Under the pieces are notes generated by a model. The model had not been told where the DNA came from. It did no database searches and was given only the letters and a program-made list of their open reading frames with translations. DNA of 64,000 nt from Streptomyces sp. Edi2 (GTDB lineage: Bacteria > Actinomycetota > Actinomycetes > Streptomycetales > Streptomycetaceae): the NCBI RefSeq assembly GCF_040253635.1, contig NZ_JBEJGX010000003.1, positions 4,489,501 to 4,553,500 of the forward strand, in the 5' to 3' direction. Numbering within the stretch: the stretch's first letter is position 1; each line of letters begins with the position of its first letter. This document shows, piece after piece, positions 30,655-56,233 of this stretch. The position numbers and the translations under genes are program-made.

Positions 30655-31950
30655 TCAGGTCAGGTCGCGCATCCGCCGGATGGGGCTGCTCCACAAGGCC
30701 AGCGGCGCCAGGAAGGCCAGCGCGCACATCACCCAGACGGCGCCTCGGTTGCCCAGTGCGGTGGCCGCCGCGCCGGCGACCAGGGCGCCGACCGGGATGG
30801 CTCCCCAGGAGATGAAGCGCACGGTGGCCATGACACGGGGCAGCAGTTCGATGGGGGTCACCGTCTGCCGGTGGGTACGGGTCAGGATGCTCATGATCAC
30901 TGCCGCGGCCCCGAAGCCCATGCTGCCCAGGGCGAAGAGGAGCAGCCCCCATCCCGTCTGCGCCAGCGGCATCAGCAGGGCGCACGCCGCCCCGGCGAAC
31001 GTGCCGCAGACCAGGGTGCGGGCACTGCCGAGCCGGTTCGCGAGGCGGGTGGTGAGCGTCGCCCCGATCAGGCTGCCCAGGCCCTCGGCGGCTATCAGCA
31101 GGCCGACGAGGCTCGCGGGGGCGTGCAGGGTCCGCATGAGGAAGACGGGTGTGAGCGCCATGAGGCCGCCGAGGATGAAGTTGGTCAGGGTCGCGGCCGC
31201 CGCACAGGGACGGATCACCGTGTGGTGGGCCACGAAACGCCAGCCCTCCTTGATCAGCGCCACGGTCGACTCGCGCTCCGCCGGCGCCTCCGGAGGGGCG
31301 GCCCTGGGCAGGCTCCACAACAGAAGGGCCGAGACCAGGTAGCTGACGGCGTCGACGACGAGGCTCAGGGCCGCGCCGCAGAACTGCACGAGCACGCCGC
31401 CGAGCGAGGGGCCACCGAGCTGGGTCGCCGAAGTGGAGGCGGAGGAGAGGGAGTTACGCGCGGTCAGCTCGTCCTTGCTGACGATGGTGGGGAGGAACGT
31501 CGAGTTGCCGACGTCGAAGACCACCGTCGCCAGGCCGATGACCAGCGCGACGACCACGAGCTGTGCCAGGTGCAGGACGCCCAGCGCGTAGGCCACCGGC
31601 ACCGAGACGATGGCGGCCGCCCGCAGGAGGTCCATCACCACCTGGGTGCCGCGCAGCGGGAGGCGCTGCACGATGACGCCGGCCGGCAGGCCGATCGCGA
31701 TCCAGGCGGCGTACTGGGCGGCCGGCAGCAGGCTCACCTCGAACGCCGAGGCCTGCAGCGCCCCCACGGCCAGCAGCGGCAGGGCGACGGTGGTGACCGC
31801 GTCACCGGCCTGGCTGACCGTGGACGCGGTCCAGTAGCGCCAGAAGACGGAAAGGCCCCTGCGGCGGGGGGCGGGCGCCACGGTGGAAGCGGACCGGGCC
31901 GCCTCGTCCGTCGCGGCGTCCGTCCCGGCGTCCTCGTGCTGCGCCGTCAT
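30655..31950 (-). CDS. MFS transporter, probable product exporter
   Basis: A 431-aa MFS protein of the enterobactin/drug exporter type with about 12 TM helices (first ones at residues 35-100) and FWRYWTASTVSQAGDAVTTVALPLLAV at the start. It is the last gene of the leftward cluster operon and is separated from the AurF-like gene by an sbnB-like remnant. Export of the cluster product is inferred. Confidence 0.85.
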   Translation of the reverse strand: MTAQHEDAGTDAATDEAARSASTVAPAPRRRGLSVFWRYWTASTVSQAGDAVTTVALPLLAVGALQASAFEVSLLPAAQYAAWIAIGLPAGVIVQRLPLRGTQVVMDLLRAAAIVSVPVAYALGVLHLAQLVVVALVIGLATVVFDVGNSTFLPTIVSKDELTARNSLSSASTSATQLGGPSLGGVLVQFCGAALSLVVDAVSYLVSALLLWSLPRAAPPEAPAERESTVALIKEGWRFVAHHTVIRPCAAAATLTNFILGGLMALTPVFLMRTLHAPASLVGLLIAAEGLGSLIGATLTTRLANRLGSARTLVCGTFAGAACALLMPLAQTGWGLLLFALGSMGFGAAAVIMSILTRTHRQTVTPIELLPRVMATVRFISWGAIPVGALVAGAAATALGNRGAVWVMCALAFLAPLALWSSPIRRMRDLT

Positions 31951-32073
31951 CGGATACCCGCTTCCGTGGCGGGGGCCTTGCGGCGCGGTTCGCCGGCCTC
32001 GTTCGCGCTCATTCCTTCTGCCTCCTGAGGGGGAACGTCCGTGATCTGCTGAACGGGACGGACTGCTGACGGG

Positions 32074-32284: not shown

Positions 32285-33208
32285 TCAGACCAGGCCCGCT
32301 GACGCGAAGGCCTCCTCGGCTCCGGGCATCTCCAGCACGCCCACCGATTCGAAGAGCCGGACGGTGTGCCGGGCCGAGTGGCGGATCTGCTCGCGGACCT
32401 GCCCGGGCGCGAACGCATCGGCGACGACCTGCTCCACACCGTCCTTGTCCAGACCCGCGAGGCGCAGCGAGTCGCGCACCGGCGCCAGGTCCGGGGCCAG
32501 GCTGCGCAGGACCAGTTCCGGCAGACAGCGGGCGGAGCGCTCGCGCAGCCCCGGGTCCAGGTCGGTCCACAACTCCTTGAAGAACCCGGAGAAGCAGGCG
32601 TGGTGCCTGCCCTCGTCCTCGGCGTGATCGCGCACCACGTCCCGCACGGTGGTCACGACCCGGGGGTCCTTGGGGACGTCCTTGAGGATGGAGGTGACCA
32701 GCGTTTCGAAGACGACGACCTGCAGCAGCTGGGTCAGCAGCGGCTCGCCCGGCATGACCTGTGCGCCGATGCCGTCCAGTTGGCTCAGGAAGGGGCTGAA
32801 GTCATAGGCGGGCACGTCGATGCCGGTGGCGCCGCGCACCTGGTCGATGATGTCGAGGCTGTACAGGGCGTGGTACGCCTCGTCGCAGTAGATCTTGTAT
32901 GCGTCCAGCCGCATCCCGGTCGTCACCCCCAGGCCCGAGGTGCCGTTGGCGATGCGCTCGGTGGCACGGTTCACCACGCTCGTCTCGAAGTGCATGGTGA
33001 AGTGGAGGTACTGGTAGAGGTGCCGGGCGACGATGCGGAAGCGCTCGTCGGGCCCCAGTGCCCGCACCAGCGGATGGTCCACGTACGGGATCATCGCCTC
33101 CGGGAAGAGCGTCTTTCCCGATTCCAGGTCCTGGCCGATGACGCGCCGCGGGTCTCTTCGGACCCCTGCCTTCTCGTACCACTGGTTCAGCGGGGACTTC
33201 ATGGACAT
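32285..33208 (-). CDS. AurF-like diiron oxygenase 1
   Basis: A 307-aa ferritin-like diiron protein of the AurF (p-aminobenzoate N-oxygenase) family. Predicted metal ligands are E75, E110-x-x-H113 (CDEAYH), E169, and H195-xxx-E199-xx-H202 (DHAEDEGRHH), the complete AurF set. AurF-type enzymes oxidise amines to hydroxylamines or nitro groups; others hydroxylate amino-acid carbons. It is paralogous to the second copy at 41.8-42.9 kb. ATG at 33208 has GAGAGGA; an in-frame ATG lies two codons later. Tandem 19-bp repeats lie just upstream. Confidence 0.88.
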   Translation of the reverse strand: MSMKSPLNQWYEKAGVRRDPRRVIGQDLESGKTLFPEAMIPYVDHPLVRALGPDERFRIVARHLYQYLHFTMHFETSVVNRATERIANGTSGLGVTTGMRLDAYKIYCDEAYHALYSLDIIDQVRGATGIDVPAYDFSPFLSQLDGIGAQVMPGEPLLTQLLQVVVFETLVTSILKDVPKDPRVVTTVRDVVRDHAEDEGRHHACFSGFFKELWTDLDPGLRERSARCLPELVLRSLAPDLAPVRDSLRLAGLDKDGVEQVVADAFAPGQVREQIRHSARHTVRLFESVGVLEMPGAEEAFASAGLV

Positions 33209-33220
33209 TCCTCTCGTGCC

Positions 33221-33365: not shown

Positions 33366-33971
33366 CTAGGCCACGGCCGAGACCACCAGCCAGGTGCCGA
33401 TGGCGCACAGGGCCCCGCCGCCCACGGTCTCCAGCACGCGGCGCCAGCCGTCCCGCTTGAAGATGTTTCCGAGCCGCAGCACCAACAGGGCATAGCCGCA
33501 CAGGCACAGGAAGCTGAGGGCGACGTGGATACCGGCCAGGGTGAGGGAGACGGGCAGGGAACCGTTTCCGGCCGGGATGAACTGCGGCAGGAACGAGGTG
33601 TAGAAGACGCCGACCTTGGGGTTGCCCAGGCTGGTGACCGCCCCTTGACGCCAGTTCAGCTGGGTGGGTGTGTCCACGTCGCCGAGCGGTCTGCGGGCTG
33701 CGAGGAGGGCACGGATGCCCAGGAAGACCAGGTAGGCGGCCCCGGCGATCTTGATGGCGGTGAAGAGGGCGGGCGAGGCGGCCAGCACGGCCGAGAGCCC
33801 CGCCACCGAGGCCACCGCCCAGGCGACCAGCCCGGTGCACACCCCCGCGGCGGTCTGCACGGCGGCCCTGGCGCCGCCGTGCAGTGCGTTTCTGATGACC
33901 ACCAGAGTGTCCGCGCCGGGGGACACCACGATCAGCCCGGCGACGGCGATGTATCCGATGAAGTTGGTCAT
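33366..33971 (-). CDS. LysE/RhtB family amino-acid exporter
   Basis: A 201-aa membrane protein with about six TM helices. It has the family patterns VVSPGADTLVVIRNALHGGARAAVQTAAGVCTG near the N-terminus and LGNPKVGVFYTSFLPQF in the middle. LysE/RhtB proteins export amino acids and analogues, fitting a cluster whose product or intermediates are amino-acid-like. It lies between the carbamoyltransferase and AurF-like genes in the leftward operon. Confidence 0.93.
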   Translation of the reverse strand: MTNFIGYIAVAGLIVVSPGADTLVVIRNALHGGARAAVQTAAGVCTGLVAWAVASVAGLSAVLAASPALFTAIKIAGAAYLVFLGIRALLAARRPLGDVDTPTQLNWRQGAVTSLGNPKVGVFYTSFLPQFIPAGNGSLPVSLTLAGIHVALSFLCLCGYALLVLRLGNIFKRDGWRRVLETVGGGALCAIGTWLVVSAVA

Positions 33972-34087: not shown

Positions 34088-35047
34088 TCAGAGCCGGCCG
34101 GCCAGCCATTCCAGCGTGGACATGGCGCTGGTGAGCTTCATCCGGGCCTGTCCCCAGGCCACGGACCGGTCGCCGTCGAGCACGCTGCCGGCCACCTCCT
34201 CGCCGCGGTGGGCGGGCAGGTCGTGCAGGAACCGGGCCTGCGGCCAGCGGTCCATCAGGGCGTCGTCGACGTAGAACGGCAGGAATTTCTCCCGCCAGTC
34301 GGCGTCCGGCTTGGCGGTTCCGGTGGTCTGCCAGCGGGTGGTGTAGACGAAGTCGGCCTCGTGGGGGAGTTCGCGGGTCGAGTGCACCTGGGTGAGCGTG
34401 GTGCCGAGCTCGGCCGCCCGCTTGGCGGCGGACTCCAGGGCAGCGGCCGGCAGGCCGTACCCCTCGGGGGTGGCGAAGGTGACCTGGCAGCCGGAGAAAT
34501 GGGCGATGCCCTGCGCGAGGGCGGTGGCGGTGTTGTTGCCCTCGCCGAGGTAGACGATGCGTGCGCCGTCCACCCCGCCGCGGCACATGCTGATCGTCGC
34601 CAGGTCGCAGATCCCCTGCGTCGGGTGCTCCTCCGCCGCCATCGCGTTGACCACCGGTATGCCGCCGTGCCGGGAGAGCTCGCGCAGCTCGTCCAGCGGG
34701 CCTGCCGTCCTGGCGACCAGCAGGTCCAGCATGCTGCCCAGGATGCGGCCGGTGTCGGTGATCGACTCGCCGGTGTTCGTCTGCAGGTCGTGGGGGCCGA
34801 AGGTGACAGGGGAGGCGCCCAGGCGGATGGCGGCGGTGGTGAACGCCGTACGGGTGCGGGTGGAGGTCTTGGTGAAGAGGATGCCGGCCACCCGGCCGCT
34901 CAGCGGGCTGCGGTGCGCGCCGATGTCCCGGTAGAAGTCGGCGCTCCGGCGGACCAGTTGGCGCACCTCGCTCCGGGACAGCTCGCCCAGGGAGAACACA
35001 CCCTGCTCCGGCGTCACGGGCGGCAGCCCCGTCATGAGTTCGGTCAT
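34088..35047 (-). CDS. Ornithine carbamoyltransferase-like enzyme with altered substrate motif
   Basis: A 319-aa OTCase-fold protein. The carbamoyl-phosphate loop S62TRTRT67 and H141PTQ144 are intact. The ornithine-binding HCLP motif of true OTCases is HDLP here (275-278), and the usual DVWxSMG region reads YTTRW. A specialised carbamoyltransferase acting on another amine is therefore likely, comparable in concept to the carbamoyltransferases of tuberactinomycin pathways. ATG at 35047 follows AAGGAAGAG. Confidence 0.85.
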   Translation of the reverse strand: MTELMTGLPPVTPEQGVFSLGELSRSEVRQLVRRSADFYRDIGAHRSPLSGRVAGILFTKTSTRTRTAFTTAAIRLGASPVTFGPHDLQTNTGESITDTGRILGSMLDLLVARTAGPLDELRELSRHGGIPVVNAMAAEEHPTQGICDLATISMCRGGVDGARIVYLGEGNNTATALAQGIAHFSGCQVTFATPEGYGLPAAALESAAKRAAELGTTLTQVHSTRELPHEADFVYTTRWQTTGTAKPDADWREKFLPFYVDDALMDRWPQARFLHDLPAHRGEEVAGSVLDGDRSVAWGQARMKLTSAMSTLEWLAGRL

Positions 35048-35109: not shown

Positions 35110-35170
35110 GCGGGGTGCGGCTTCAGGGGCGCGGGGTGCGGCTCAGGAGCGCGGGGTGCCGCTCAGGGGC
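35110..35170. repeat. Three tandem copies of a 20-bp repeat overlapping the BFD-like gene's 3' end
   Basis: Units of the form GCGGGGTGCGGCTCAGGRGC at 35110-35130 (one extra T), 35131-35150 and 35151-35170. The BFD-like stop codon (35143-35145) lies in the middle copy, so the last codons are repeat-derived. Confidence 0.85.
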
Positions 35171-35346
35171 GCGGCGTACGCCAGAAGTTCCTCGACGTCC
35201 TCGGCGCAGTCCCCGCAGCCCGTGTTGGCCGAGGTCTCCTCGCGCACGGCCGCCAGGTCGCGGCAGCCGCGGGCGGCCGCGGCGAGGATTTCGCTCTCCC
35301 TGACATGGGCGCACATACAGATCAGGGGGTCAAAGTCGTCGCTCAT
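35143..35346 (-). CDS. BFD-like [2Fe-2S] protein
   Basis: A 67-aa protein with the bacterioferritin-associated ferredoxin pattern: CMC near residues 10-12 and CGDC at 44-47 (C-x-C ... C-x2-C), followed by a helix VEELLAYAA. It probably binds one [2Fe-2S] cluster and could pass electrons to the AurF-like or other diiron enzymes of the cluster. The ATG overlaps the aminotransferase stop (ATGA). Confidence 0.9.
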   Translation of the reverse strand: MSDDFDPLICMCAHVRESEILAAAARGCRDLAAVREETSANTGCGDCAEDVEELLAYAAPLSGTPRS

Positions 35347-36707
35347 GGCGCGCCGTTCCCCGGGCCGTCCGCGGTCTCCCGGTCCAGCGCGCCGAAGGCC
35401 AGACCGAGGATTTCGGCGAGCAGGTCGAGCTCGGCCCCGCCGGTCACCAGCGGCGGGTGGATGTTGAGGACGTCCGGTGCCATGCCGGTTGAGGCCACGA
35501 GCAGGCCGTAATCGGGGTGGACCTGGGCACCCAACTCCCTGATGCGGGCGGCGTGGTGGCCGCTCAGCACGATCCGCGCGGTGGCTCCCATGGCATCGGT
35601 CCGGCTGATGAGCCGGGGGTACCGGTCCGCGAGCTGCCGCAGCCGGGTGCGCAGACCGTCCTCCAGGGCGAGGACGTCCTTGTCCACGTCCTTCCACGCC
35701 TCCCAGCGGTCCAGCACGGTCTCCGTGACGGCGAGCGCGTGCGGGATCCCGACGAAGGTGGAGGAGTGGCTGCCCGGCCGGTAGTGCTCGGGGTCGGCCA
35801 GCGGTTCGCGCGCCCACACGGCGCTGAGCGCGGCCGCGCCGTTGGTGAGCGCCTTGCTCGTCACGATGACGTCCGGGCTGACGCCCGCGCGCTGGAAGCC
35901 CCAGCGGGGGCCGACCCGGTGCATGCCCGTGAAGATCTCGTCGGCGATGACCACGGCGCCCTGGGCACGGGCGTGGTCGACGGCCGCGCGCAGCAGCGCG
36001 GGGTCGGGCGTCACCATGCCGCCCACGTTCTGCACCGATTCGAAGATGAAGGCGGAGACCTTGCGGCCGTGGTGGCGGCCGCCGACCCCGCTGAGCTCCG
36101 AGCCCCAGCGGGCGACGGCCTGTGTGCAGCCGCCGGAGCAGCCGCCGGCGGGCCGGGCGTGCGGGCAGCGCAGACAGTCGGGGCTGGGCAGCCGTACGAC
36201 CTCCAGGCCCCAGGCGGCGAGCAGTTCGCGGTAGCGCGGGCTGCTGCTGAGCATGCTCGTCACCCCGGAGCGGCCGTGGAAGGCGCCCTCGAAGACCACG
36301 ACCGTGCCGGGCCCGTTGTTGCTGAAGGCGATGCGCAGCGCGGTCTCCATGCCCTGGGCGCCGCCCAGGTCCAGCTCGACCCGGCCGGGCGCCCCCACGG
36401 CCTCGGAGCACAGCCGCTCGATGCGCTCCAGGACGGCCAGCCGCAGCTCCGACTCGCAGAACGACGGGAGGGCCGGCAGCTCCATGCAGCGGTTCAGCGC
36501 CTCGCGCAGGATCTCGCTGTCGTACCCCCAGGAGAGGGTGCCGTTGGCGGCCTCGGCGTCCAGATACCGCCGCCCGTCGGCCGCCTGGAGGAAACAGCCC
36601 TCGCCGCCGACGAAGCGGGGGACGTGCGCGGACCGGTAGATCAGGTTGCCCGCGCCCGCGAAGGGCGGTATCTGCGTGTGCTGCGCGCCGGTGTTCAGGA
36701 CAGGCAC
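35343..36707 (-). CDS. Class III PLP-dependent aminotransferase
   Basis: A 454-aa omega-aminotransferase-fold enzyme of the diaminobutyrate/acetylornithine group. Visible are GAQGMETALRIAFSNNGPG, FEGAFHGRSG, ADEIFTGMHRVGPRWGFQ and the PLP lysine in VTSKALTNG. An insertion rich in Cys (CLRCPHARPAGGCSGGC, about residues 160-176) could bind metal, unusual for the class. GTG at 36707 follows AGGAGACCG; the start lies inside the 3' end of the upstream gene (13-nt overlap). Confidence 0.88.
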   Translation of the reverse strand: MPVLNTGAQHTQIPPFAGAGNLIYRSAHVPRFVGGEGCFLQAADGRRYLDAEAANGTLSWGYDSEILREALNRCMELPALPSFCESELRLAVLERIERLCSEAVGAPGRVELDLGGAQGMETALRIAFSNNGPGTVVVFEGAFHGRSGVTSMLSSSPRYRELLAAWGLEVVRLPSPDCLRCPHARPAGGCSGGCTQAVARWGSELSGVGGRHHGRKVSAFIFESVQNVGGMVTPDPALLRAAVDHARAQGAVVIADEIFTGMHRVGPRWGFQRAGVSPDVIVTSKALTNGAAALSAVWAREPLADPEHYRPGSHSSTFVGIPHALAVTETVLDRWEAWKDVDKDVLALEDGLRTRLRQLADRYPRLISRTDAMGATARIVLSGHHAARIRELGAQVHPDYGLLVASTGMAPDVLNIHPPLVTGGAELDLLAEILGLAFGALDRETADGPGNGAP

Positions 36708-37699
36708 CGTTCGGTCTCCTTCGCGGTCGGGTTCCCGCCGGGTGCGGCGGGCTGCCAGGCGGCGGCCGACGAGGTGGGCAGCAGGGGCGCCACGCCCGGT
36801 TCGTTGCAGTCGATCCAGCCGGTGACCACCGACAGCACATCCCAGCGGGCGCTGCCGTACGGGAGCGGGGTACGGGCCAGTTCCGCCAGCCAGGCGCCGA
36901 TGTGCTCGGGGGCGGCGGCGGTCGCGGCCAGGTGGGCCCAGGCGTCGGTGCCGCGCTCCAGGCGGCGCAGGGACAGGGCCAGGTCCAGGTCGTGCTGGGG
37001 GATGGCGGCCTCCAGCTCGGGCAGCAGGTCGTGCGCGGGGCCGCTGCCCGGTGCGGGCGGCTGCCCGGGGCCCTCGCAGGTCAGCGCCTGGCGGCACCAC
37101 TGCCAGCCGGTCTGGTAGGAGAACAGCTGCAGCTCGCGGACCACGTCGGCCGGGTCGTCCGCGGTGTGCATGAAGTTGAACAGGCCGTTCACCCGGCCGA
37201 TCCGGGTCCGCAGATCCCGGCCGCGCGCGGCCTCGGGGTCCGCGCTGCCCTTGGCGGCCGTCAGCCGGACGCTGGCGGGCATCCACGCGGGGCGCCGGGC
37301 GTCGCCCAGCAGCACCAGGAGGGAGGGGCCCGAGCCGAGCAGGTGGTCGACGACGGCGATGCGCTGCTGCGAGGCGGCGTTGAACTGGTAGCGCCACAGC
37401 TCCCGGGTCAGCAGCGGATCGAAGCGCACCGTGGTCGCCGCCAGCGGGAACCAGCCCTCCTCGTACAGCACGTTCAGGAGCTGACGGCAGCGCCGCCCGG
37501 CGACCGCGTCGGGCTTGAGCGCGACGAACGTCACGCCCCGGGAGCGCTCCAGCGCCCCCATCGCGGCGAAGGAGTCCAGTCCCTCGCGGGCGTAGGTGTC
37601 GTAGCGGTACAGCTCGCGCTTGTCGGGGTCGGCCGTCAGTGCGTCGAGCGCGTCGGCCGCGACCGCCGAGCGGCATGCCGCGTCAGTCGTCAGTGTCAT
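36695..37699 (-). CDS. Nucleoside-diphosphate-kinase-like protein with extra C-terminal domain
   Basis: A 334-aa protein. Residues about 56-193 resemble NDP kinase: FVALKPDAV (K62) at the N-terminal strand and RIGRVNGLFNFMHTADDPADVVRELQLF, in which N175, H178 and E189 fit the catalytic Asn/His/Glu. An insertion separates these parts, and about 140 C-terminal residues are not recognised. A phosphotransfer role in product assembly is possible; the classical NDPK signature HGSDS is changed to HTADD. ATG at 37699 overlaps the upstream gene by 17 nt. Confidence 0.75.
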   Translation of the reverse strand: MTLTTDAACRSAVAADALDALTADPDKRELYRYDTYAREGLDSFAAMGALERSRGVTFVALKPDAVAGRRCRQLLNVLYEEGWFPLAATTVRFDPLLTRELWRYQFNAASQQRIAVVDHLLGSGPSLLVLLGDARRPAWMPASVRLTAAKGSADPEAARGRDLRTRIGRVNGLFNFMHTADDPADVVRELQLFSYQTGWQWCRQALTCEGPGQPPAPGSGPAHDLLPELEAAIPQHDLDLALSLRRLERGTDAWAHLAATAAAPEHIGAWLAELARTPLPYGSARWDVLSVVTGWIDCNEPGVAPLLPTSSAAAWQPAAPGGNPTAKETERCLS

Positions 37700-47135: not shown

Positions 47136-47162
47136 CGCCTTTGCGGTTCAGACCGCCGTGGT

Positions 47163-47793: not shown

Positions 47794-48513
47794 TTGGCCA
47801 GCAACCCGGCTCTTTCGGCCGCTTTTCCGCTGCCCATCGAGCTCGAAGCGATCGTATTCGACTGCGACGGGCTTCTTTTGGACACGGAAACCTGCTGGTC
47901 ACGCGCGGAGGGCGCGCTCTTCCGTGCGCACGGGCGCGAATTCGGCCTGGCCGAAAAGCAACTTGTCATCGGCAAGACCGTGGAGGGCGTCGGCGAGGTG
48001 ATGGCCGATTACTTCGGGCGTCCCGGCGAGGGTGAGCTGCTCTCCGCCGAGCTGCTGGAGGGCGTGCGCCGGGAGCTGGCCGACGGGGTGGCCGCGCTGC
48101 CCGGGGCCGCTGACCTGGTACGGGCCTGTGCCGAGCGGCTGCCCGTCGCCGTCGCCAGCAATAGCCCCCGGTCGCTGCTGGAGACCGCGCTGGGGAGCTC
48201 CGGCCTGGCCGATCTGCTGCCGCTCTCGTTCGCGGCCGACGAGGTGGCGGCTCCCAAACCCGCCCCCGACCTCTATCTCACCGCCTGCCGGGCGCTCGGC
48301 GCCGACCCCGCCTCCTGTGTCGCCTTCGAGGACTCCCACACGGGCATCCGCGCGGCCCGCGCCGCGGGGCTCCACCTGGTCACCGTGCCCTCGCTGGCCG
48401 GCCAGGAGCTGGACCACGACTGGCTGCTGGACTCCCTGGCCGACCCCCAACTCCAGGCGTGGGCCCGTGCCCTGCGACCGGCGGTCGCCCCCGCCGCCCA
48501 CCGACCATCCTGA
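47794..48513 (+). CDS. HAD-superfamily phosphatase
   Basis: A 239-aa HAD hydrolase of the beta-phosphoglucomutase/phosphatase subfamily. Motif I is DCDGLLLDT (D23, D25), motif II VASNSPRS, the Lys is in APKPAPDLY and the acidic motif is FEDSHTGIRAARAAG, all intact. Dephosphorylation of a pathway intermediate is likely. No ATG fits; TTG at 47794 follows GGAGG with 4-nt spacing. It is the first gene of the rightward operon. Confidence 0.87.
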   Translation: MASNPALSAAFPLPIELEAIVFDCDGLLLDTETCWSRAEGALFRAHGREFGLAEKQLVIGKTVEGVGEVMADYFGRPGEGELLSAELLEGVRRELADGVAALPGAADLVRACAERLPVAVASNSPRSLLETALGSSGLADLLPLSFAADEVAAPKPAPDLYLTACRALGADPASCVAFEDSHTGIRAARAAGLHLVTVPSLAGQELDHDWLLDSLADPQLQAWARALRPAVAPAAHRPS

Positions 48514-48708: not shown

Positions 48709-49401
48709 ATGCCGATCGGCACCCAGGGATTCACCGTCTTCGATCTGCCCGCCGTCCCCACGGAACTCCTGGACAGCTACGACGACCTTCCGGTCGACGA
48801 CTACATGGGCAACGGCACACGCTTCAAACGGTTCTCGCAGTACCGGCTGTCCCCCGCCGAGGGCGACGCCTGGAACTTCGCGCTGCTGCCGCACCGGGAC
48901 TACACGGCGCTCAAGAAGTTCAACAAGGCCGCCGGCGGCATCCGCCGGACCTATGAGCCCGTCAAGGCCGACTTCACCGGCCTGATCTCCCGGGGCATCG
49001 CCGGTATCGGCCTCGACCGCGGCGAGGACTGGCAGATCAATGTGCACCAGAACCGCACCCGGGCCGAGGCCGGCCGCCCCGGGCCGCTGACGCCCGAGGG
49101 CGTGCACCACGACGGCCACGAGTTCGTGATGATCGCCGTACTGCGCCGGCAGGACGTGGGCGGCGGCGAGACCCGGCTGTGGAAGCCCGGCGCCGACGAG
49201 CCCTTCTGGAGCGGGACGCTCGAGGCGGGCCAGGCCGTACTCCTCGACGACAAGGCCATCGCCCACGACGTGACCGACGTCGTGGCGGCCGGTGACCGGC
49301 CCGGACACCGGGACATCGTGATCGTCGCGTTCTCGCGCTGGCAGCACAAGTGGTACGGCGACGAGCACGACTCCGTCGCGCTGTCCGAGGACGCCGGCTG
49401 A
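48709..49401 (+). CDS. 2-oxoglutarate/Fe(II) dioxygenase (free amino acid hydroxylase type)
   Basis: A 230-aa protein of the 2OG-Fe dioxygenase family that includes isoleucine 4-hydroxylase. The facial triad is H133-x-D135 (EGVHHDGHEF) and H186 (AHDV), with R201 to bind 2-oxoglutarate. Family members hydroxylate free amino acids, so it probably makes a hydroxylated amino-acid building block. AAAGGAG precedes the ATG. The 195-nt gap upstream has repeats of GTGACCACCTGACC type and no gene. Confidence 0.88.
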   Translation: MPIGTQGFTVFDLPAVPTELLDSYDDLPVDDYMGNGTRFKRFSQYRLSPAEGDAWNFALLPHRDYTALKKFNKAAGGIRRTYEPVKADFTGLISRGIAGIGLDRGEDWQINVHQNRTRAEAGRPGPLTPEGVHHDGHEFVMIAVLRRQDVGGGETRLWKPGADEPFWSGTLEAGQAVLLDDKAIAHDVTDVVAAGDRPGHRDIVIVAFSRWQHKWYGDEHDSVALSEDAG

Positions 49402-49456: not shown

Positions 49457-50527
49457 ATGCCTGAGAACTGGAAAGCCCGGCTCGCCGAGGGTCCGCTGTC
49501 CGCGGTGCGCGCCCTGGAGTCCTGTACCGCCGGCGAACTGACCCTGCTCACCGAGAACTACGCCTTCCGCGGCGCGCTGGCCGCCGCCTGCAAGGAGCTC
49601 ACCGGGCGCGCCTACGCCGGCAAGGACCGCGCCGCGCTCGCCGACATGCACGAACTCCTCGCCCTCATCTACGACCGGGACTTCTCCGGCGTGGTCATCG
49701 CCGAGGTCGACCACGAACGCACGCCCCTTCTGCGCGATGTCGCCGCGATCCTGGAAGCGGCCATGCTGGGTGAGGAAACCGCCCGCATCGACGAGGAGAC
49801 CGTCACCGGCTACCCGCGGTCCGGCACGGACTACGTCCGCTGGCTGAAGAACCTCGTCAACGACCACCCGGCCGGCCGGCACCCGCTCTACCACGAGCAC
49901 ATCGAGCAGCGGGGCTCGCGGGAGGACCTGCGGCTGCTGCTCGCCCAGGAGACCAGCCTCGACCCGCGCTTCGACGACATCCTCGCCTCGATGCAGATGG
50001 GCCGGACCGGCGGCGAGAAGATGGAGATAGCCGCCAACTACTGGGACGAGATGGGTAACGGCGACGCCGAGCAGGTCCACACCAGCCTCTTCTCCCAGGC
50101 CCTGGACTCCATCGGCGCCGACCCGGCCTTCATCCGGGACAGCTTCATGCTGGAGGCCGGGATCTGCGGAAACCTCTCCGCCTGCCTCGGTCTCGCCCGC
50201 CGGCACTACTTCAAGGCCGTGGGCTACTTCGGCGTGACGGAGTACCTGGCGCCCCGCCGCTTCCGCTGCGTGGTCGACACCTGGCGCAGACTGGGCCTGC
50301 ACGAGGTCGGCATCACCTACCACGACCTGCACATCGGCATCGACGCCGGGCACGCCTCCGGCTGGTTCAAGAACGTCGTGGCGCCGCTGGTGGACGGCGA
50401 CGCCCTGATCGGCCGGGACATCGCCCTGGGTGCCATGATCAGGCTCAACACCTCACAGGACTACCTCGACGAACTGCTGCGGCGGATGCAGGACCGGTCC
50501 CCCGTCGCGGTCGGCGCCAAAGCCTGA
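49457..50527 (+). CDS. Iron-containing redox enzyme, heme-oxygenase-like diiron oxidase (HDO)
   Basis: A 356-aa protein of the iron-containing redox enzyme family. The core carries QETSLDPRFDDIL, then NYWDEMGNGDAEQVHTSLF (acidic pair and H208) and, later, GITYHDLHIGIDAGHASGW. Known HDOs include N-oxygenases and C-C cleaving oxidases that make nitro, N-N or alkene groups in natural products. With two AurF-like enzymes it points to N-oxidation chemistry. ATG at 49457 lies 55 nt after the dioxygenase gene. Confidence 0.88.
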   Translation: MPENWKARLAEGPLSAVRALESCTAGELTLLTENYAFRGALAAACKELTGRAYAGKDRAALADMHELLALIYDRDFSGVVIAEVDHERTPLLRDVAAILEAAMLGEETARIDEETVTGYPRSGTDYVRWLKNLVNDHPAGRHPLYHEHIEQRGSREDLRLLLAQETSLDPRFDDILASMQMGRTGGEKMEIAANYWDEMGNGDAEQVHTSLFSQALDSIGADPAFIRDSFMLEAGICGNLSACLGLARRHYFKAVGYFGVTEYLAPRRFRCVVDTWRRLGLHEVGITYHDLHIGIDAGHASGWFKNVVAPLVDGDALIGRDIALGAMIRLNTSQDYLDELLRRMQDRSPVAVGAKA

Positions 50528-50537: not shown

Positions 50538-51491
50538 GTGCCACCACCCCTTCCGCCCCCTCGCCGCGACATGGCGGACGGCCATGACTTCGTGAAGTAC
50601 GAGGCCCTGGGCAACGACTACTTGGTGATCGCGCCGGCCGCCGGCCAGGTGGCGCCGACACCGGAGAACATCCGGCTGATCTGCGACCGCCACTACGGTC
50701 CCGGTGCCGACGGAGTCCTCTACGGCCCGCTCCCCGAGGAGCACGGTTTCGGGCTGCGCACCTTCAACTCCGACGGCACCGAATGCGAGCAGAGCGGCAA
50801 CGGGCTGCGCATTTTCGGCCGTTACCTCCACGACCACGGCTGGACCGGGGAACCGGAGTTCACCGTCCGCACCCCGGCCGGGCCGGTCACCGTGCAACTG
50901 GTGGACCAGGCCCCGGGCCCGGACGCACCGGCCGCCGCCTCCTCCGGCCCGGACCACACCGCAGGCGGTGCCCCCGTACGCGTCTCCATGGGGCGGGCGT
51001 CGCTGGACAGCGAGCTGATCGGTGCCACCGGTCCGCGCCGGGAGATGCTGCGCGAAACCCTCCCGGCGGCGGGCCGCGAGTGGACGGCCACCTGTGTCTT
51101 CCTGGGCAACCCGCACTGCGTCCTCCCGCTGGACGGCACCGAGGTGACCGAGGAGCTGGCCCGGCACGTGGGCCCCGTGCTCGCCGGCCACGACCGCTTC
51201 CCCGGGCGCATCAACGTCCAGCTCATGGAGGTAGGCGCCGCCGACCGCATCCGCATCGAGACCTACGAGCGGGGCGCCGGCTACACGCTCGCCTCGGGCA
51301 GCAGCGCCTGTGCGGCGGCCGTCGCCGCCCACACCCTCGGGCTGACCGGCCCCGAGGTCACCGTCGAGATGCCCGGCGGCCGGCTCGCCGTCGGCATCTC
51401 CGACGCCGGCGAGGTCACCCTCACCGGTCCGGCCCGGCCCGTCGTGGCCGGCCGGTGGACCCCGGCATTCCGCAGGCGGCTGGCCTCATGA
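50538..51491 (+). CDS. Diaminopimelate epimerase (DapF)-fold protein lacking both catalytic cysteines
   Basis: A 317-aa DapF homologue. The family motifs FNSDGTECEQSGNGLR and ERGAGYTLASGSSACA are present, but the two active-site Cys of DapF (in CGNG and ACGTG/S) are Ser86 and Ser253. Codons AGC at 50793 and TCG at 51294 confirm this. It may be a Ser-based isomerase, a non-racemising isomerase or a binding protein. GTG start at 50538 follows a GAGGGGGAGGA run; ATG at 50571 is an alternative. Coupled to the aminotransferase (ATGA). Confidence 0.9.
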   Translation: MPPPLPPPRRDMADGHDFVKYEALGNDYLVIAPAAGQVAPTPENIRLICDRHYGPGADGVLYGPLPEEHGFGLRTFNSDGTECEQSGNGLRIFGRYLHDHGWTGEPEFTVRTPAGPVTVQLVDQAPGPDAPAAASSGPDHTAGGAPVRVSMGRASLDSELIGATGPRREMLRETLPAAGREWTATCVFLGNPHCVLPLDGTEVTEELARHVGPVLAGHDRFPGRINVQLMEVGAADRIRIETYERGAGYTLASGSSACAAAVAAHTLGLTGPEVTVEMPGGRLAVGISDAGEVTLTGPARPVVAGRWTPAFRRRLAS

Positions 51492-52597
51492 CCACGATCA
51501 CCATGCGCCAGTGGTACTTCGACGAGGCCCACGGCCACTACGACATCGACCTCGGCGACAGCTATGTGGGCGGCAGCCGCCTGTCCGACCACGCCCTGCC
51601 CGCCGACTGCCTCCTCGACTACGGCAACAACCGGGGGACCGCCCCGCTGCGCCACCTCGTGGCCGGCCTCTACGGCCGCGACGTGTCCCACATAGGCATC
51701 ACCCACGGCGGGCAGGAAGCCCTCTACCTCCTCTACCGCACCCTGCTGTCCGCAGGCGACCACGCCGTGATCTTCACCCCCGGCTGGCAGCAGGCGGAGC
51801 CGGTGCTGACCCGCGCCGGATGCCGGGTGGACGCCGTCGGCACCACCGCCGACGGCCGCCCGGACATCGCCGCGGCGCTGCGCAGGATCGGCCCCCGCAC
51901 GAGGGCCGTGGTGCTCAACTCGCCCTGCAATCCGACCGGCCGGAAGGTCACCGCCGACGGCATCAAGGAGTTGGCCGAGGCGCTGCGGGGGCACGGCGGC
52001 CATCTGATCCTCGACGAGGAGTACGTCGCCGATCTCGGCGCCGACTCCTGGGTCGGGGCGTACGAACACGCCGTCTCCGTGTCCAGCGTCTCCAAGGTCT
52101 ACGGGGTCCCGGGCCTGCGCGTCGGCTGGATGTGCGGCCCGCCCGAGGTCGTGGACGCGGCCATGCAGTACAAGCACTTCACCACCGTCACCAACTCGGT
52201 GGTCCTGGAGCAGCTGGCCACCGGGATCCTGGAGCGCCGCGAGGAGCATGTGCGGCGCTACCGGCAGCTGATCACCGATGGCCAACAGATGCTGGAGCGC
52301 TGGGCCGCCCGGCACCGCGGCACGCTGCGGATGTGGCAGCCGGAGGGCACCCCGTACGCCTGGCTGCACACCCCCGGCCTGCCGTCCTCGCTGGAGTTCT
52401 GCCGCGAGGTGCTGCGCCGGGAGCGCGTGCTGCTGATGCCGGCCGAGGTGTTCGGCACCGAGCACGGCCTCCGCCTCACCTTCGCCCGGCAGCCGGACGT
52501 CCTGGCCGAGGGCCTGCGGCGCATCGACGCCGTACTGGCCGGCCACCCCACCGCCGCCGGGAGCGGCACCCACACCGAGAGCAGGGAGCAACAATGA
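51488..52597 (+). CDS. Fold-type I aminotransferase, capreomycidine synthase-like
   Basis: A 369-aa class I/II PLP enzyme with NSPCNPTGRKV, LDEEYVADLG and the PLP lysine in SVSSVSKVYGVPGLRVGWM. The N-terminus MRQWYFDEAHGHYDIDLGDSYV resembles the LxDWMRxxYF start of capreomycidine synthases (VioD/OrfR), so it might cyclise or beta/gamma-replace rather than transaminate. That comparison is from memory and tentative. It is coupled on both sides by ATGA overlaps. Confidence 0.82.
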   Translation: MTTITMRQWYFDEAHGHYDIDLGDSYVGGSRLSDHALPADCLLDYGNNRGTAPLRHLVAGLYGRDVSHIGITHGGQEALYLLYRTLLSAGDHAVIFTPGWQQAEPVLTRAGCRVDAVGTTADGRPDIAAALRRIGPRTRAVVLNSPCNPTGRKVTADGIKELAEALRGHGGHLILDEEYVADLGADSWVGAYEHAVSVSSVSKVYGVPGLRVGWMCGPPEVVDAAMQYKHFTTVTNSVVLEQLATGILERREEHVRRYRQLITDGQQMLERWAARHRGTLRMWQPEGTPYAWLHTPGLPSSLEFCREVLRRERVLLMPAEVFGTEHGLRLTFARQPDVLAEGLRRIDAVLAGHPTAAGSGTHTESREQQ

Positions 52598-53355
52598 CGG
52601 CACCGCTCGAGGAGATGCCCACCGACTGGTCGCGCGGACTGGCGCTGGTGGCACACCCCGACGACATCGAATACGCCATGGGTCCGGCGGTGATCACCTG
52701 GACCGGCAGCGGCAAGGAGATCGCCTACGTCCTGGCCAGCCGCGGCGAGGCCGGCATCGACGGCTGCGACCCGGAGAAGGCCAGGCCGCTGCGGGAACGG
52801 GAGCAGCGCGCGAGCTCGGCGGTCGCCGGGGTGACCTCGGTCGACTTCCTGGACCACCCGGACGGGCTGATCACGGACTCGGTGGCGCTGCGCCGGGAGT
52901 TCGCCACCGCCATCCGCCGCCACCGGCCCGAAGTGGTGCTCACGGTCAACCACCACGAGCACTGGCGCGGCGTCTCCTGGAACACCTCGGACCACCGGGT
53001 CGTCGGCCGGGCCGCGCTGGACGCCGTCGTCGACGCCGGCAACCGCTATGTCTTCACCGAGGACGGCCTCGACCCCTGGGAAGGCGTGCGGTGGATGGCC
53101 GTCGCCGGCTCCCCGTACCCCACGCACGCCGTGGAGGTCGCGGGCGCCGAGGACCGCGCCGTCGAGGCGGTGCTCCAGCACCGGGCCTATCTGGAAGCGC
53201 TCACCGACGAGGACCCGGAGAGCTACGCCCGGGGGCTCCTGCGGCGCAACATGGCCAGGGCGGGCGCGCTCTTCCACGACCGTGACGCGGTCGCGTTCCA
53301 GCTCTTCGAGCGCGACGCCTACCGCGTCAAGGACGGAGTCACCCACTACCGCTGA
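52594..53355 (+). CDS. PIG-L family deacetylase
   Basis: A 253-aa zinc-dependent deacetylase-like protein. The AHPDD motif (20-24) supplies metal ligands and catalytic Asp, and NTSDHRVVGRAALDAV supplies the third His. The family removes N-acetyl groups from sugars, cysteine conjugates and some antibiotics. With the NagA-like protein it suggests that acetyl protection is used in the pathway. ATG at 52594 overlaps the aminotransferase stop. Confidence 0.9.
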   Translation: MTAPLEEMPTDWSRGLALVAHPDDIEYAMGPAVITWTGSGKEIAYVLASRGEAGIDGCDPEKARPLREREQRASSAVAGVTSVDFLDHPDGLITDSVALRREFATAIRRHRPEVVLTVNHHEHWRGVSWNTSDHRVVGRAALDAVVDAGNRYVFTEDGLDPWEGVRWMAVAGSPYPTHAVEVAGAEDRAVEAVLQHRAYLEALTDEDPESYARGLLRRNMARAGALFHDRDAVAFQLFERDAYRVKDGVTHYR

Positions 53356-53396: not shown

Positions 53397-54704
53397 ATGC
53401 ACCTGGCCTTCGTCGACTCCAACCCCCCTGCCCTGCAAGCCATCAGGCTGGCCAAGAGCGCGGGACACCGGGTCACCTATCTGCAGTCCGCACACACCCA
53501 GTACCCGCTCACCGACGCCAACCTGGCCCTGGTCTCGTCCGTGGACCGGCTCGTCGACGGGCTGGTCACCACCGATCACGAGGTGGTGACCGCGGCGCTG
53601 GCCGAATGCCACGCCGCACACCCCATCGACTTCGTCACCACGCAGCACGAGATGTCCGCCGAGGCGGTGGCGGCGGCCTGCCGCGCACTGGGGCTGCGGG
53701 GCACCTCACCACAGGCAGTGCTCATCGCCCGGCGCAAGGACCGCACCCGGGCGGCGCTGCAGGCCGCGGGCCTGGCCTCGGCACACTTCGCGACCGCCAC
53801 CGACGAGGCGGCGGCGCTGGCCGCGGCGGAGCGGATCGGCTACCCCGTGGTGTTCAAGCCACCGTCCGGGGCGGCCGGGCTGCTCGCCTGTGTGGTCCAC
53901 GACGCGGCGGAGGCCAGGTCGGCCTGGCAGCGGCTGCAGCGCGGCCTCGATGCGGTGCCCGAGGACTGGCGCGGCCAGTTCCGGCGCGGCGTCCTCATCG
54001 AGGAGTTCCTGGTGGGGGAGCTGGTGTCGGTGGAGATCGGCGCCCGCGACGGCCGGTTCTTCCCGCTGTGCATCAGCGGCCGCTACCGCTGGGCGGGCGA
54101 CGGGGTCACCGCCCTGGGGTCCTTCATCCCGGCCGGCCTGGAAGCGCAGCAGGCCACCGCGTGCTGGGAGTACGCCCGCCGGGTCTGCGGGGCGATCGGT
54201 GCCGACATCGGCGTCTTCCACCTGGAGATCATGGTCACCCCGCGGGGGCCCGTCCTGGTCGAGTTCAACCCCCGGGTGATGGGCGGCGGCCTGCCCGCCG
54301 CCTACCGCCACGCCACCGGGCAGGAGGTCTACGCCGCGCTGCTGGACGTCCTCGCCGGGGCCGACGACGTCGCCGCGCCGCCCTTCCGGGCCGGCTGCAC
54401 CGCGGTCCGCGTCGTCATCCCCCGCGAGGCCGGCCGGCTCGGCCCCGACGCGACCCTGGCGCCCCTGGACGGGCACCCCGCTGTCAAGGAGGTCATCGGC
54501 TTCGGCGAGTACCGCACCGGCCCCGGCAGCGAGGTGGCCAGAGGCCAGGCGCTGGCCCGGTTCATCGTCCAGGATGACGACCCGGCGGCCGTCGAGCGGA
54601 CCTCCGAGCTCCTGCTCAGCCGCCTGGAACCGCTGCTCGGCGTCCCCCTGATGACCGGCAGCTACCATCCCGGCAGCCCGGAGCGCCCGGGGAGCGCACG
54701 GTGA
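53397..54704 (+). CDS. ATP-grasp ligase
   Basis: A 435-aa ATP-grasp protein of the carboxylate-amine ligase/L-amino acid ligase group: RRKDRTRAALQAAGLASAHF, YPVVFKPPSGAAGLLACVV, LIEEFLVGELVSVEI and VEFNPRVMGGGLPAAYRHATG. It should activate a carboxylate as acyl phosphate and join it to an amine, making a peptide-like bond. It could couple pathway amino acids to each other or to the short peptide. ATG at 53397. Confidence 0.9.
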   Translation: MHLAFVDSNPPALQAIRLAKSAGHRVTYLQSAHTQYPLTDANLALVSSVDRLVDGLVTTDHEVVTAALAECHAAHPIDFVTTQHEMSAEAVAAACRALGLRGTSPQAVLIARRKDRTRAALQAAGLASAHFATATDEAAALAAAERIGYPVVFKPPSGAAGLLACVVHDAAEARSAWQRLQRGLDAVPEDWRGQFRRGVLIEEFLVGELVSVEIGARDGRFFPLCISGRYRWAGDGVTALGSFIPAGLEAQQATACWEYARRVCGAIGADIGVFHLEIMVTPRGPVLVEFNPRVMGGGLPAAYRHATGQEVYAALLDVLAGADDVAAPPFRAGCTAVRVVIPREAGRLGPDATLAPLDGHPAVKEVIGFGEYRTGPGSEVARGQALARFIVQDDDPAAVERTSELLLSRLEPLLGVPLMTGSYHPGSPERPGSAR

Positions 54705-56233
54705 GCCGGCCCGGAGGACCCCGCACCGCCGACCCGCAACACACCGCGGACCGCCCGGCCGCACCGCCCGGCCGCCGTGCCCTCGTCTTCGCCCTGATGA
54801 TGGCGATGGCGCTGGCGGCCCTGGACAGCGCGGTGGTGGCCACGGCCGTTCCGCAGATCGTCGGCGACCTCGGCGGGTTCTCGTACTTCTCCTGGCTCTT
54901 CTCCGGGTATCTGCTCGCCGGCACGGTGTCCCTGCCGGTCTACGGCAAGCTCAGCGACACCCTGGGGCGCAAGCCGGTCCTGCTGTTCGGCATCGGCCTC
55001 TTCCTGGCGGGCTCCGCGCTGTGCGCGGCCTCCTGGAACATGGCCGCGCTGATCGTCTTCCGCATCGTCCAGGGCTTCGGCGGAGGCGCGATCCAGAGCA
55101 CCGTCCAGACCCTCGCCGCCGACCTGTACCCCCTGAAGGAACGCCCGCGGATCCAGGCCGCCATCTCCTCCGTGTGGGCCGGCTCCGCCGTTCTCGGCCC
55201 CGCCGTCGGCGGCCTGATCACCACCTGGGCCGACTGGCGCCTCATCTTCCTGCTCAACGTCCCGCTCGGGCTGGTCTCGCTCGTCCTGCTGGCCCGCCGC
55301 CTGAGCGAGCCGCACCGAGAGCGCGCCGCCGGGCGCCTGCGGGTCGACTGGGCCGGCGCGCTGGCCCTCTTCCTCACCGGCTGCGCCCTGCTGACCGCCA
55401 TCATCCAGGGCGGACACGCCTGGCCCTGGCTCTCCGCGCCGTCCCTCGGCCTCTTCGGCACCGGCGCCGTCCTGCTGGCCCTCACGGTCGTGGTGGAGCG
55501 GCGCGCGGCAGATCCCATCCTCCCGGGCTGGGTATGGCGCCGCCGCACCATCGCCGCCGCCAATCTGGCCATGGGGGCGCTCGGCGTGATGACCATCGCC
55601 CCGACCGTCTTCCTCCCCACCTACGCCCAGTCCGTGCTCGGCCTCGATCCGCTGCGGGCGGGCTTCGTGCTGGCCGTCATGTCGGTGGCCTGGCCCCTCT
55701 CGGCGGCCTTCAGCCAGCACGTCTACCGGCGCATCGGATTCCGCCAGTCGGCGATGACCGGTATGGCCGTCGCCTGCCCCGTCCTGCTGGCCTTCCCCGC
55801 CCTCTCCGGCACCCACAGCCCCTGGTACCCCGCCCTCATCTCGCTGGCCCTCGGCGCCTGCCTCGGCATCACCCAGCTGCCCCTGCTCGTCGGGGTCCAG
55901 TCGACGGTGACCGTCTCGGAACGCGGTACGGCGACGGCCTCGCTCCTCTTCTGCCGCCAGCTCGGCTCCAGCATCGGCGCCGCCGTCTTCGGCGCCCTGG
56001 CCAATGCGATCCTCAACTCCCGTCTGCAGGGCACCTCTTCCGCCCTCCCGTCCACCGGGGGCAGCATCCTCGACTCGCTCTCCTCCGGCGCCACCTCCGG
56101 CGCCGCCGCGGGCCCGCTGCGCGACGCCCTCGCCACGGCGGTCGACTGGGTCTACGTCGGCGCCGCAACGGCCGCCGCCCTCGCCGTCCTCGCCCTCTTC
56201 CTGGCCCCGCGCCGCTTTCCGGTGCTCGATTGA
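54701..56233 (+). CDS. MFS drug:H+ antiporter (DHA2, 14-TM type)
   Basis: A 510-aa EmrB/QacA-type exporter: LDSAVVATAVPQIVGDLGG in TM1, GRKPVLLFGIGLFLAGSALCAAS, and GGAIQSTVQTLAADLYP in motif C surroundings. About 14 TM helices are predicted. It is the last gene of the rightward operon (GTGA overlap with the ATP-grasp gene) and is the second exporter of the cluster, likely for export or self-resistance. Confidence 0.92.
   Translation: MSRPGGPRTADPQHTADRPAAPPGRRALVFALMMAMALAALDSAVVATAVPQIVGDLGGFSYFSWLFSGYLLAGTVSLPVYGKLSDTLGRKPVLLFGIGLFLAGSALCAASWNMAALIVFRIVQGFGGGAIQSTVQTLAADLYPLKERPRIQAAISSVWAGSAVLGPAVGGLITTWADWRLIFLLNVPLGLVSLVLLARRLSEPHRERAAGRLRVDWAGALALFLTGCALLTAIIQGGHAWPWLSAPSLGLFGTGAVLLALTVVVERRAADPILPGWVWRRRTIAAANLAMGALGVMTIAPTVFLPTYAQSVLGLDPLRAGFVLAVMSVAWPLSAAFSQHVYRRIGFRQSAMTGMAVACPVLLAFPALSGTHSPWYPALISLALGACLGITQLPLLVGVQSTVTVSERGTATASLLFCRQLGSSIGAAVFGALANAILNSRLQGTSSALPSTGGSILDSLSSGATSGAAAGPLRDALATAVDWVYVGAATAAALAVLALFLAPRRFPVLD

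Follow-up and report, generated by a model that had tools for sequence, protein, structure and literature searches.

What does a gene cluster make in which a peptide of only 22 residues stands beside an asparagine synthetase homologue and two diiron enzymes of the AurF type? The question is raised by a 64,000-nt stretch of Streptomyces sp. Edi2 (contig NZ_JBEJGX010000003.1, positions 4,489,501 to 4,553,500; this whole stretch is called the window), where 26 open reading frames (ORFs) extend from one MFS gene (31950-30655) to another (54701-56233). Our gene calls, made with a script trained on the window, agree with an earlier note, made from the sequence alone, which had placed about 26 genes between two conserved loci. 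Our reading, to which we give a probability of about 0.6, is that the core is a module for a ribosomally synthesized and post-translationally modified peptide (RiPP). By analogy with known enzymes, an AsnB homologue with a fused RiPP recognition element (AsnB-RRE) would amidate the C-terminus of the 22-mer with a nucleophile H2N-X, here yielding a hydroxamate, and the terminal residues would enter the product.

A peptide of constant length

The peptide was sought in 32 distinct AsnB-RRE loci, 29 of which belong by origin label to the family of the window (the exceptions are L058, L163 and L164; L and G numbers are our handles for loci and genomes, the window genome, of 9.8 Mb, being G000). L057, L061 and L162 lie on the same contigs as L055, L041 and L060 and were merged or dropped, as were L037 and L045, which are extensions of L036 and L046. 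L050 and L051, which have a nucleotidyltransferase (NTase) gene and no AsnB in the stretch, stand outside the 32; L051 was later completed by L230. The 32 loci contain 3585 ATG-initiated ORFs of 15–60 aa, 119 of them 22 aa long. A start of the form M..Y..P occurs in 31 of the 3585, and 30 of these 31 are exactly 22 aa, which is beyond chance and bears out the view that a 22-aa, RRE-dependent YxxP peptide lies at the centre of the cluster. One or two copies of the 22-mer are present in 29/32 loci (30 in total, those of the window and L151 included), and a further one was found in genome G252. The search pattern demanded Y4 and P7, which are invariant by construction, and allowed K or A at position 6; K6 was found in 30/30, V12 in 29/30 and K10 in 28/30, while positions 19–22 are variable. 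The 22-mer of the window ends in -Val-Val.

The peptide gene lies 5–6 kb away from AsnB in L038 and L163. In L038 (3659-3836) it is a tandem pair of 22-aa peptides, with ends -NA and -GA, ~5 kb from AsnB. In Streptantibioticus silvisoli (L060:6297-6362), a divergent peptide of 21 aa, MKKYVAPRVVEVRQATVLGGH, accompanies AsnB-RRE and PqqD. The hairpin that follows the peptide gene in the window could be an attenuating terminator; a perfect stem of at least 11 bp lies downstream of 19 of the 31 peptide genes examined.

The AsnB-RRE enzyme

The AsnB-RRE protein starts at the ATG at 46990 (MCGLSG...) and is 732 aa long. Among the 120 matches listed, with ~8000 candidates scored in the protein searches, is a 97% identical protein of Streptomyces sp. 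DSM 41527 (a further listing holds the best 120 of 169). Cys2, NGE and SGG[IV]DS are intact in 18/18 AsnB ORFs caught by a motif scan, in which L060 and L162 are one locus counted twice and apart from which the window's own copy was inspected separately; M1, C2 and G3 are shared by at least 90% of the 25 sequences in an alignment. Because the enzyme keeps these motifs, hydrolysis of a Gln-type donor is expected. Lasso cyclases, by contrast, are not expected to hydrolyse such a donor. The C-terminus resembles PqqD in a single-pair hhalign comparison (E 4e-5, probability 69%); the window protein itself gives no Pfam PqqD match, and its homologue P0079 gives one of 43 bits. With the free-standing PqqD, the two PqqD domains named in the earlier note are thus accounted for.

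Fosfazinomycin-type clusters carry a peptide and an enzyme of this type

Four peptide loci lack AurF (L059 and L158–L160). Three of these, in extended stretches from three genomes (L158+L223, L159+L225 and L160+L227), are fosfazinomycin (fzm)-type clusters. There, the peptide and AsnB are accompanied by a methyltransferase (named by eye), a phosphoenolpyruvate (PEP) mutase and a thiamine pyrophosphate (TPP) decarboxylase, and farther along by a glutamine synthetase, an amidase, an unmatched protein, a GNAT protein and a homologue of adenylosuccinate lyase, arranged as N-O-P-Q-R are in PMC6133997. An FzmL-like lyase is additionally present in L225 and L227, as is an FzmM-like flavoenzyme. The clusters also contain members of the module's PqqD, NTase and thymidylate-kinase-like families. 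L059 (Streptomyces sp. CB01201), which is incompletely covered, is similar in the part examined. By annotation and position, the AsnB-RRE of these loci is probably FzmA. The AsnBs of L158, L160 and L059 nest with that of the window in the AsnB-RRE clade (fork 100/99), outside which lie the AsnBs of a trichostatin-like locus (L218) and of L220.

The window and fzm have in common the 22-aa YxKP peptide, an AsnB-RRE of the same clade, PqqD, NTase and a nucleotide-kinase-like gene. They differ in that fzm has the FzmL–R hydrazine set, a PEP-mutase phosphonate branch and the peptide end -VR, whereas the window has AurF, a kinase resembling nucleoside-diphosphate kinase (NDK), no PEP mutase in the cluster and the peptide end -VV. 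When 18 fzm-type queries were used, only PqqD (32%) and NTase (39%) matched the window, and neither the FzmL–R hydrazine genes nor PEP mutase did; G000 does have PEP-mutase-family hits, all at positions beyond the window.

All four fzm-type peptides end in -Val-Arg. Fosfazinomycin A is the Val-Arg N-methylhydrazide of a hydroxyphosphonoacetate methyl ester, C15H32N7O7P. For X in the X-Arg of this structure, Val is the sole fit by mass among 18 residues tried, and the masses of the structure with seven, six and five 15N (461.1966, 460.1996 and 459.2025) are identical to the calculated values in PMC6133997. Genome G252 offered a case in which the outcome could have gone otherwise. Its first stretch has an NTase and a PqqD adjoining FzmN/O/R-like genes, with no AsnB, and the neighbouring stretch (the two together being L051+L230) proved to contain an AsnB-RRE and a 22-mer, MKAYTKPTAKPVSQPDIVAVVR, ending in -Val-Arg. 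This divergent cluster also has an NDK-like gene, together with a lysine/ornithine monooxygenase, a cupin and a class-I tRNA-synthetase-like protein, which are parts of MetRS/cupin hydrazine synthesis (PMC11705231). AurF was found neither in the G252 cluster nor in L059, and the extended stretches of the three fzm-type loci likewise gave none. A -VR end is therefore seen in 5/5 hydrazine-type peptides, which represent two lineages since the four fzm-type loci are close relatives and not independent, versus 0/26 AurF-type 22-mers.

According to PMC6133997 (2018), FzmA frees hydrazine from glutamylhydrazine, and neither ligation nor adenylation of arginine was observed. No word beginning with 'peptide' occurs in PMC6133997, nor does 'RiPP' in PMC11705231. 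We judge it a little more probable than the reverse that a single, so far unrecognised RiPP class, that of C-terminal N-X peptides (hydrazides and hydroxamates), includes both fosfazinomycin and the window product. In this class, AsnB-RRE (FzmA) would transfer hydrazine or hydroxylamine from a gamma-glutamyl donor to a peptide of near-invariant length (22 residues), of which the final one or two residues would end up in a tiny product. FzmA would then have the C-terminal arginine of the peptide, not free arginine, as its missing acceptor, which would explain the release of hydrazine without ligation of free arginine, and a characterised antibiotic would become a RiPP. We cannot say whether the fosfazinomycin peptide link has already been published, as no literature search was aimed at it.

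AurF enzymes and probable hydroxamate chemistry

The diiron ligand positions of AurF2 (E112, E147, H150, E205, H232, E236 and H239) are conserved across at least 90% of 21 sequences; their identity was assigned by spacing to the AurF numbering. The window genome has a trichostatin-like locus elsewhere (L218, G000:C3:504000-519900), with a polyketide synthase (KR/DH/AT/ACP), AurF, a methyltransferase, an AsnB without an RRE match, a chorismate enzyme, an AMP-ligase and DAHP synthase. This content agrees with the TsnB7/8/9 order of PMC13418202; in the comparisons that follow, L218 stands in for the authentic trichostatin enzymes. AurF2 shares 38.7% identity with the L218 AurF, versus ~25% with AurF (3chh) and with CmlI (5hyg). 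In a tree of 53 AurF rows, 45 (module, AurF1-type and L218, the last a long branch) split from an 8-row CmlI/AurF group with support 100/100.

In trichostatin biosynthesis, TsnB7 converts glutamine by oxidation to glutamyl hydroxamate, whose hydroxylamine is then passed by TsnB9 to an acid (PMC5719088, PMC13418202). Given this precedent and the grouping of AurF2, the combination of AurF2 and AsnB-RRE points to a hydroxamate at the C-terminus of the peptide, and the N-oxygenated product that had been thought probable remains so. The likeness to the TsnB6/7/9 pair, found also in matlystatin and actinonin, consists of an AurF of the same clade with intact diiron ligands and an AsnB with intact Cys2. 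The differences are that the TsnB9-like AsnB of L218 lacks an RRE match and falls outside the AsnB-RRE clade, and that the acceptor of TsnB9 is trichostatic acid, not a peptide (PMC13418202).

Other AurF-containing loci were also seen. L220 (G014:C285) has PEP mutase, TPP decarboxylase, an AurF (50% to AurF2) and an AsnB without an RRE match, and no 22-mer was found there. L039 has homologues of PEP mutase and phosphonopyruvate decarboxylase (50% and 42% to those of fzm type) beside an AurF-type module and could make a phosphonate hydroxamate. A homologue of pantoate ligase and an iron-dependent alcohol dehydrogenase are encoded in L040, a relative of L039.

Recurrence of the module

AurF is found in 27, PqqD in 26 and NTase in 25 of the 32 loci, the NTase frequency being inflated because L036–L055 were selected by NTase hits; AurF and PqqD were not selection criteria. 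AurF and PqqD are both carried by 25/25 NTase loci. Either a thymidylate-kinase-like or an NDK-like gene is present in 20 of these 25, and both together in none. L059 and L158–L160 count as lacking NTase within 20-kb stretches; in L158–L160 the genes lie beyond, and the count for L059 covers its 20-kb stretch.

Clusters sharing the peptide, AsnB-RRE and DapF, for which the earlier note had advised a search, were found. In genome G932, all 25 proteins are retained at 91–99% identity along with an identical 22-mer, and L048+L166 and L052+L169 have AurF1 and the ornithine carbamoyltransferase (OTC), 2-oxoglutarate (2OG) oxygenase, heme-oxygenase-like diiron oxidase (HDO), DapF, pyridoxal phosphate (PLP), PIG-L and ATP-grasp genes alongside the peptide module, in other gene orders. 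Among the best 80 AsnB loci listed in a scan of named genomes, 6 align past query residue 700 and the others stop by 624. A strict profile search (E <= 1e-160, a threshold that will miss divergent members) found 3/394 genomes class-wide and 13/394 family-wide, the window's own in both. An NTase search in the genus found 23/295 genomes including its own, 4 of these being weak (27–30% identity). NTase copies with a degraded catalytic Asp motif were seen in L045 (16408-17226) and L050 (6008-6826), in clusters with three NTases.

Proposed pathway and alternatives

The gene content, the intact motifs, the family assignments and the conservation of the peptide are observed facts, whereas all reactions that we infer for the window organism are conjectural and would run as follows. 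The YxKP segment would dock on the C-terminal RRE of AsnB and on the free PqqD, with the constant length of 22 residues positioning the C-terminus in the active site. AsnB-RRE would then amidate the C-terminal carboxylate with H2N-X released from a gamma-glutamyl donor. X would be NH2 in fzm and OH here, through the action of AurF2 on the glutamine amide or on the peptide amide itself, giving a C-terminal hydroxamate. NTase/PqqD and the NDK-like partner might act on the N-X group, by nucleotidylation or by forming a P-N or P-O bond, which is the least certain step. A protease, for which the CPBP protein is a candidate, would free a short C-terminal piece, Val or Val-Val, so that the last residues of the peptide become part of the product. 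The plus-strand genes would convert lysine to nitrocyclopropylalanine, and the ATP-grasp ligase would join the building blocks. If this is correct, a 22-codon M..Y.KP gene beside AsnB-RRE would be a fast genome-mining handle for hydroxamates and hydrazides, pharmacophores that are difficult to find by sequence, and part of each product could be predicted from the end of its 22-mer, an idea that is directly testable.

Several observations weigh against this pathway. L058 and L164 have AurF and AsnB-RRE, and no peptide was found there, while L060, with its 21-mer, has neither AurF nor NTase in the stretch examined. The Val-Arg ends come, as said, from two lineages only; free argininylhydrazine is treated as an FzmH substrate in PMC6133997, which fits a peptide-free route; and Val might be added from a tRNA by the product of a FemAB/GNAT-like gene, named by eye, that hydrazine-type clusters carry. 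G252 has the NTase and no PEP mutase hit, which speaks against a phosphonate-specific role of NTase; the idea that NTase and kinase form a phosphonate P-N bond, attractive for fzm, was given up on this ground. The last residue of the peptide differs even between related clusters (Cys in L155, Ala/Val in L036/L056, Lys/Arg in L053/L154). This variability, at a constant length, would suit a pure carrier on whose C-terminus hydroxylamine, hydrazine or an amino acid is built and then hydrolysed off, as in the pearlin (PEARL) logic, and it made us prefer a carrier at first. A pathway with a carrier peptide has reportedly been published. Glutamate serves as hydrazine carrier in fzm/kin (PMC6133997). 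No LanB-type peptide aminoacyl-tRNA ligase was matched by Pfam among the 25 scanned cluster ORFs. Since -VR is found in 5/5 hydrazine-type loci and Val-Arg fits fosfazinomycin A, the carrier explanation was demoted and now appears rather doubtful. Of the peptide-carrier pathway proposed in the earlier note, the central ribosomal peptide therefore stands, but it is probably not just a carrier.

It is also conceivable, but unlikely, that AsnB-RRE makes a plain C-terminal amide, or a nitrile as PesC does, and that AurF2 acts on a separate, non-peptide substrate. TsrC, ScdTA and PesC are asparagine synthetase-like enzymes that amidate or nitrilate peptide C-termini (PMC13060819), and the window enzyme scores above the NCBIfam threshold for ordinary asparagine synthase (TIGR01536, 315.5 vs 267.1 bits), a further point against a hydroxamate-forming role. 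The window differs from these modifiers in the fixed length of its 22-mer, in the fusion of RRE and AsnB and in having an N-oxygenase as partner. Against the plain-amide reading, AurF accompanies PqqD in each of the 25 NTase-positive loci counted above and adjoins it in the window, and AurF2 groups with the trichostatin-like enzyme. The divergent transcription around 47.2–47.9 kb could indicate two or three unrelated clusters side by side, a plus-strand nitrocyclopropylalanine operon and a minus-strand peptide module with AurF1/OTC genes. AurF1-type and OTC-like genes do occur together in 5/12 loci of the set L207–L218 (L207–L210 and L215), in stretches where no AsnB or 22-mer was found, but the same gene sets are combined in other orders in L048+L166 and L052+L169 and retained in full in G932, so that a chance juxtaposition is distinctly improbable. 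As for a lasso-like or other macrocyclising RiPP system, a YxxP leader, a PqqD-type RRE, an AsnB homologue and NTase occur in lasso clusters too. The 22-mer, however, has no Asp/Glu acceptor after Glu8, and AsnB keeps Cys2 and scores under the lasso and macrolactam cyclase cut-offs (174.5 vs 525; 52.6 vs 300), which makes such a system hardly credible. We thus retain the C-terminal amidation of the 22-mer with H2N-X as the preferred reading.

The nitrocyclopropylalanine cassette and the remaining genes

The coordinates of the features are collected in Table 1. On the plus strand, an HrmI-type HDO, an HrmJ/BelL-type 2OG oxygenase and DapF are adjacent, so that, judged by sequence matches, nitrocyclopropylalanine is very probably the product of this section. 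The HrmJ/BelL label is inferred, the matching record, 9dq0, being titled merely 'BsmA domain containing protein'. The same three genes and an ATP-grasp ligase are shared with the belactosin/hormaomycin cassette (BelK/HrmI, BelL/HrmJ and BelM/HrmT), from which the window differs in having no nonribosomal peptide synthetase-type Pfam match among the 25 scanned ORFs and in the position of the cassette beside a peptide module. The gene belM is paired with hrmT (PMC10764440), belactosin peptide bonds are formed by ATP-grasp ligases, and a BelL homologue from Streptomyces rimosus subsp. paromomycinus reportedly yields a cis isomer (belactosin/hormaomycin review). The claim that the gene set has no characterised relatives consequently does not hold: the cassette is known, the AurF and AsnB pair resembles that of trichostatin, and the core recurs in fosfazinomycin-type clusters. 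A D-cycloserine-like reading of DapF and ATP-grasp was abandoned after the HrmI match, and a capreomycidine-type role for the PLP enzyme was rejected, as its scores against the nearest models, GntC and VioD, both fall far short of the cut-offs.

Table 1. Features of the cluster and the basis of their naming (coordinates within the window)
Feature	Coordinates	Strand	Basis
MFS exporter	30655..31950	-	Pfam
AurF1, second diiron enzyme	32285..33202	-	Pfam; tree
LysE-type exporter	33366..33971	-	Pfam
OTC-like enzyme	34088..35047	-	Pfam; TIGR00658 221.6 bits, under cut-off 280.85
BFD-like [2Fe-2S] protein	35143..35346	-	Pfam
Class-III aminotransferase	35343..36707	-	Pfam
NDK-like protein, NFMH (H178) motif	36695..37699	-	Pfam 24.4 bits, cut-off 27
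PurN-like formyltransferase	37683..38519	-	Pfam 25.9 bits (cut-off 26.1); TIGR00639 39 bits (cut-off 150.1)
Alpha/beta hydrolase	38516..39259	-	Pfam
cup39, cupin paralogous to cup40	39256..39936	-	no Pfam match
cup40, cupin of thiol-dioxygenase fold	39936..40613	-	no Pfam match
NagA-like protein (named by eye), 353 aa	40683..41744	-	no Pfam match
AurF2, diiron enzyme, clade of trichostatin-like N-oxygenase	41818..42855	-	ligand positions; tree
Free-standing PqqD/RRE	42929..43171	-	Pfam 55.1 bits
NTase, ANT/kanamycin-NTase fold	43219..44001	-	NTP_transf_2 20.8 bits, cut-off 21; ANT-like model
CPBP/Rce1-like membrane protease, candidate leader peptidase	43998..44795	-	Pfam 24.1 bits, cut-off 22.4
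AsnB-RRE, Gln-type amidotransferase/synthetase, C-terminal PqqD-like domain (FzmA-type)	44792..46990	-	Pfam; motifs; tree
Hairpin, 14-bp perfect stem, between peptide gene and AsnB	47104..47136	-	fold z -5.6; 0/200 shuffles as stable
22-aa precursor peptide MRKYTKPEAKKVNQGTVLGSVV	47163..47231	-	gene calls; 22-mers in related loci
HAD hydrolase	47878..48513	+	Pfam; start probably upstream near 47.8 kb, in-frame ORF from 47566
2OG oxygenase, probable HrmJ/BelL-type nitrocyclopropane synthase	48709..49401	+	405 bits, residues 1-228, PDB 9dq0
HDO, HrmI/BelK-type lysine N-oxygenase	49505..50527	+	388 bits, PDB HrmI 9n1a
DapF, probable BelM/HrmT counterpart	50571..51491	+	TIGR00652 199 bits, cut-off 114.65
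PLP enzyme nearest GntC/VioD models	51488..52597	+	NF041364 216.4 bits, under cut-off 415
PIG-L deacetylase	52594..53355	+	Pfam
ATP-grasp ligase (BacD-like)	53397..54704	+	sequence match
MFS exporter	54701..56233	+	Pfam

The cluster is flanked on the left by DUF5324/cyclophilin genes and on the right by tRNA-Ala, a weak helix-turn-helix match and a protein-kinase gene. The Pfam scan covered 25/26 ORFs, the 22-mer being excluded, and with the NCBIfam scan it agrees with the enzyme set listed in the earlier note. Above the Pfam cut-off are two AurF, PqqD, AsnB, Rce1/CPBP-like, HDO (PF14518), 2OG (PF10014), DAP epimerase, class-III and class-I/II PLP enzymes, ATP-grasp, OTC-type carbamoyltransferase, LysE and PIG-L; the NDK-like, formyltransferase and NTase matches are slightly under it. 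The HAD gene near 47.8–48.5 kb was unnamed in that list. The minus-strand operon reads peptide-AsnB-CPBP-NTase-PqqD-AurF2-NagA-like-two cupin-like paralogues-hydrolase-PurN-like-NDK-like-AT-III-BFD-OTC-like-LysE-AurF1-MFS (AT-III, class-III aminotransferase), and the plus strand HAD-2OG-HDO-DapF-PLP-PIG-L-ATP-grasp-MFS.

Homologues of the CPBP protein were found only in L151 and L155 (tblastn, E 1e-8, among the loci of two locus comparisons), and those of the NagA-like protein in 10/32 AsnB-RRE loci, the window included. N175 and H178 of the NDK-like protein are kept in 5/5 aligned sequences. The cupins are paralogues of 225/226 aa (39256-40613). The fold searches used for naming, that of the NTase included, give the fold, not the function. 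The BFD-like protein may be an electron donor for the diiron enzymes. In other loci, a PALP enzyme follows the AurF1-type and OTC-like genes in L209, and PALP and an ornithine-cyclodeaminase-family gene occur in L166; these neighbours suggest a diaminopropionate-derived branch. An enolase gene lies near the module in L036 (12995-14275) and L056 (8139-9419). A role in self-resistance was considered and set aside, both genomes having two enolases, as does G000, so that the gene is a lead at most.

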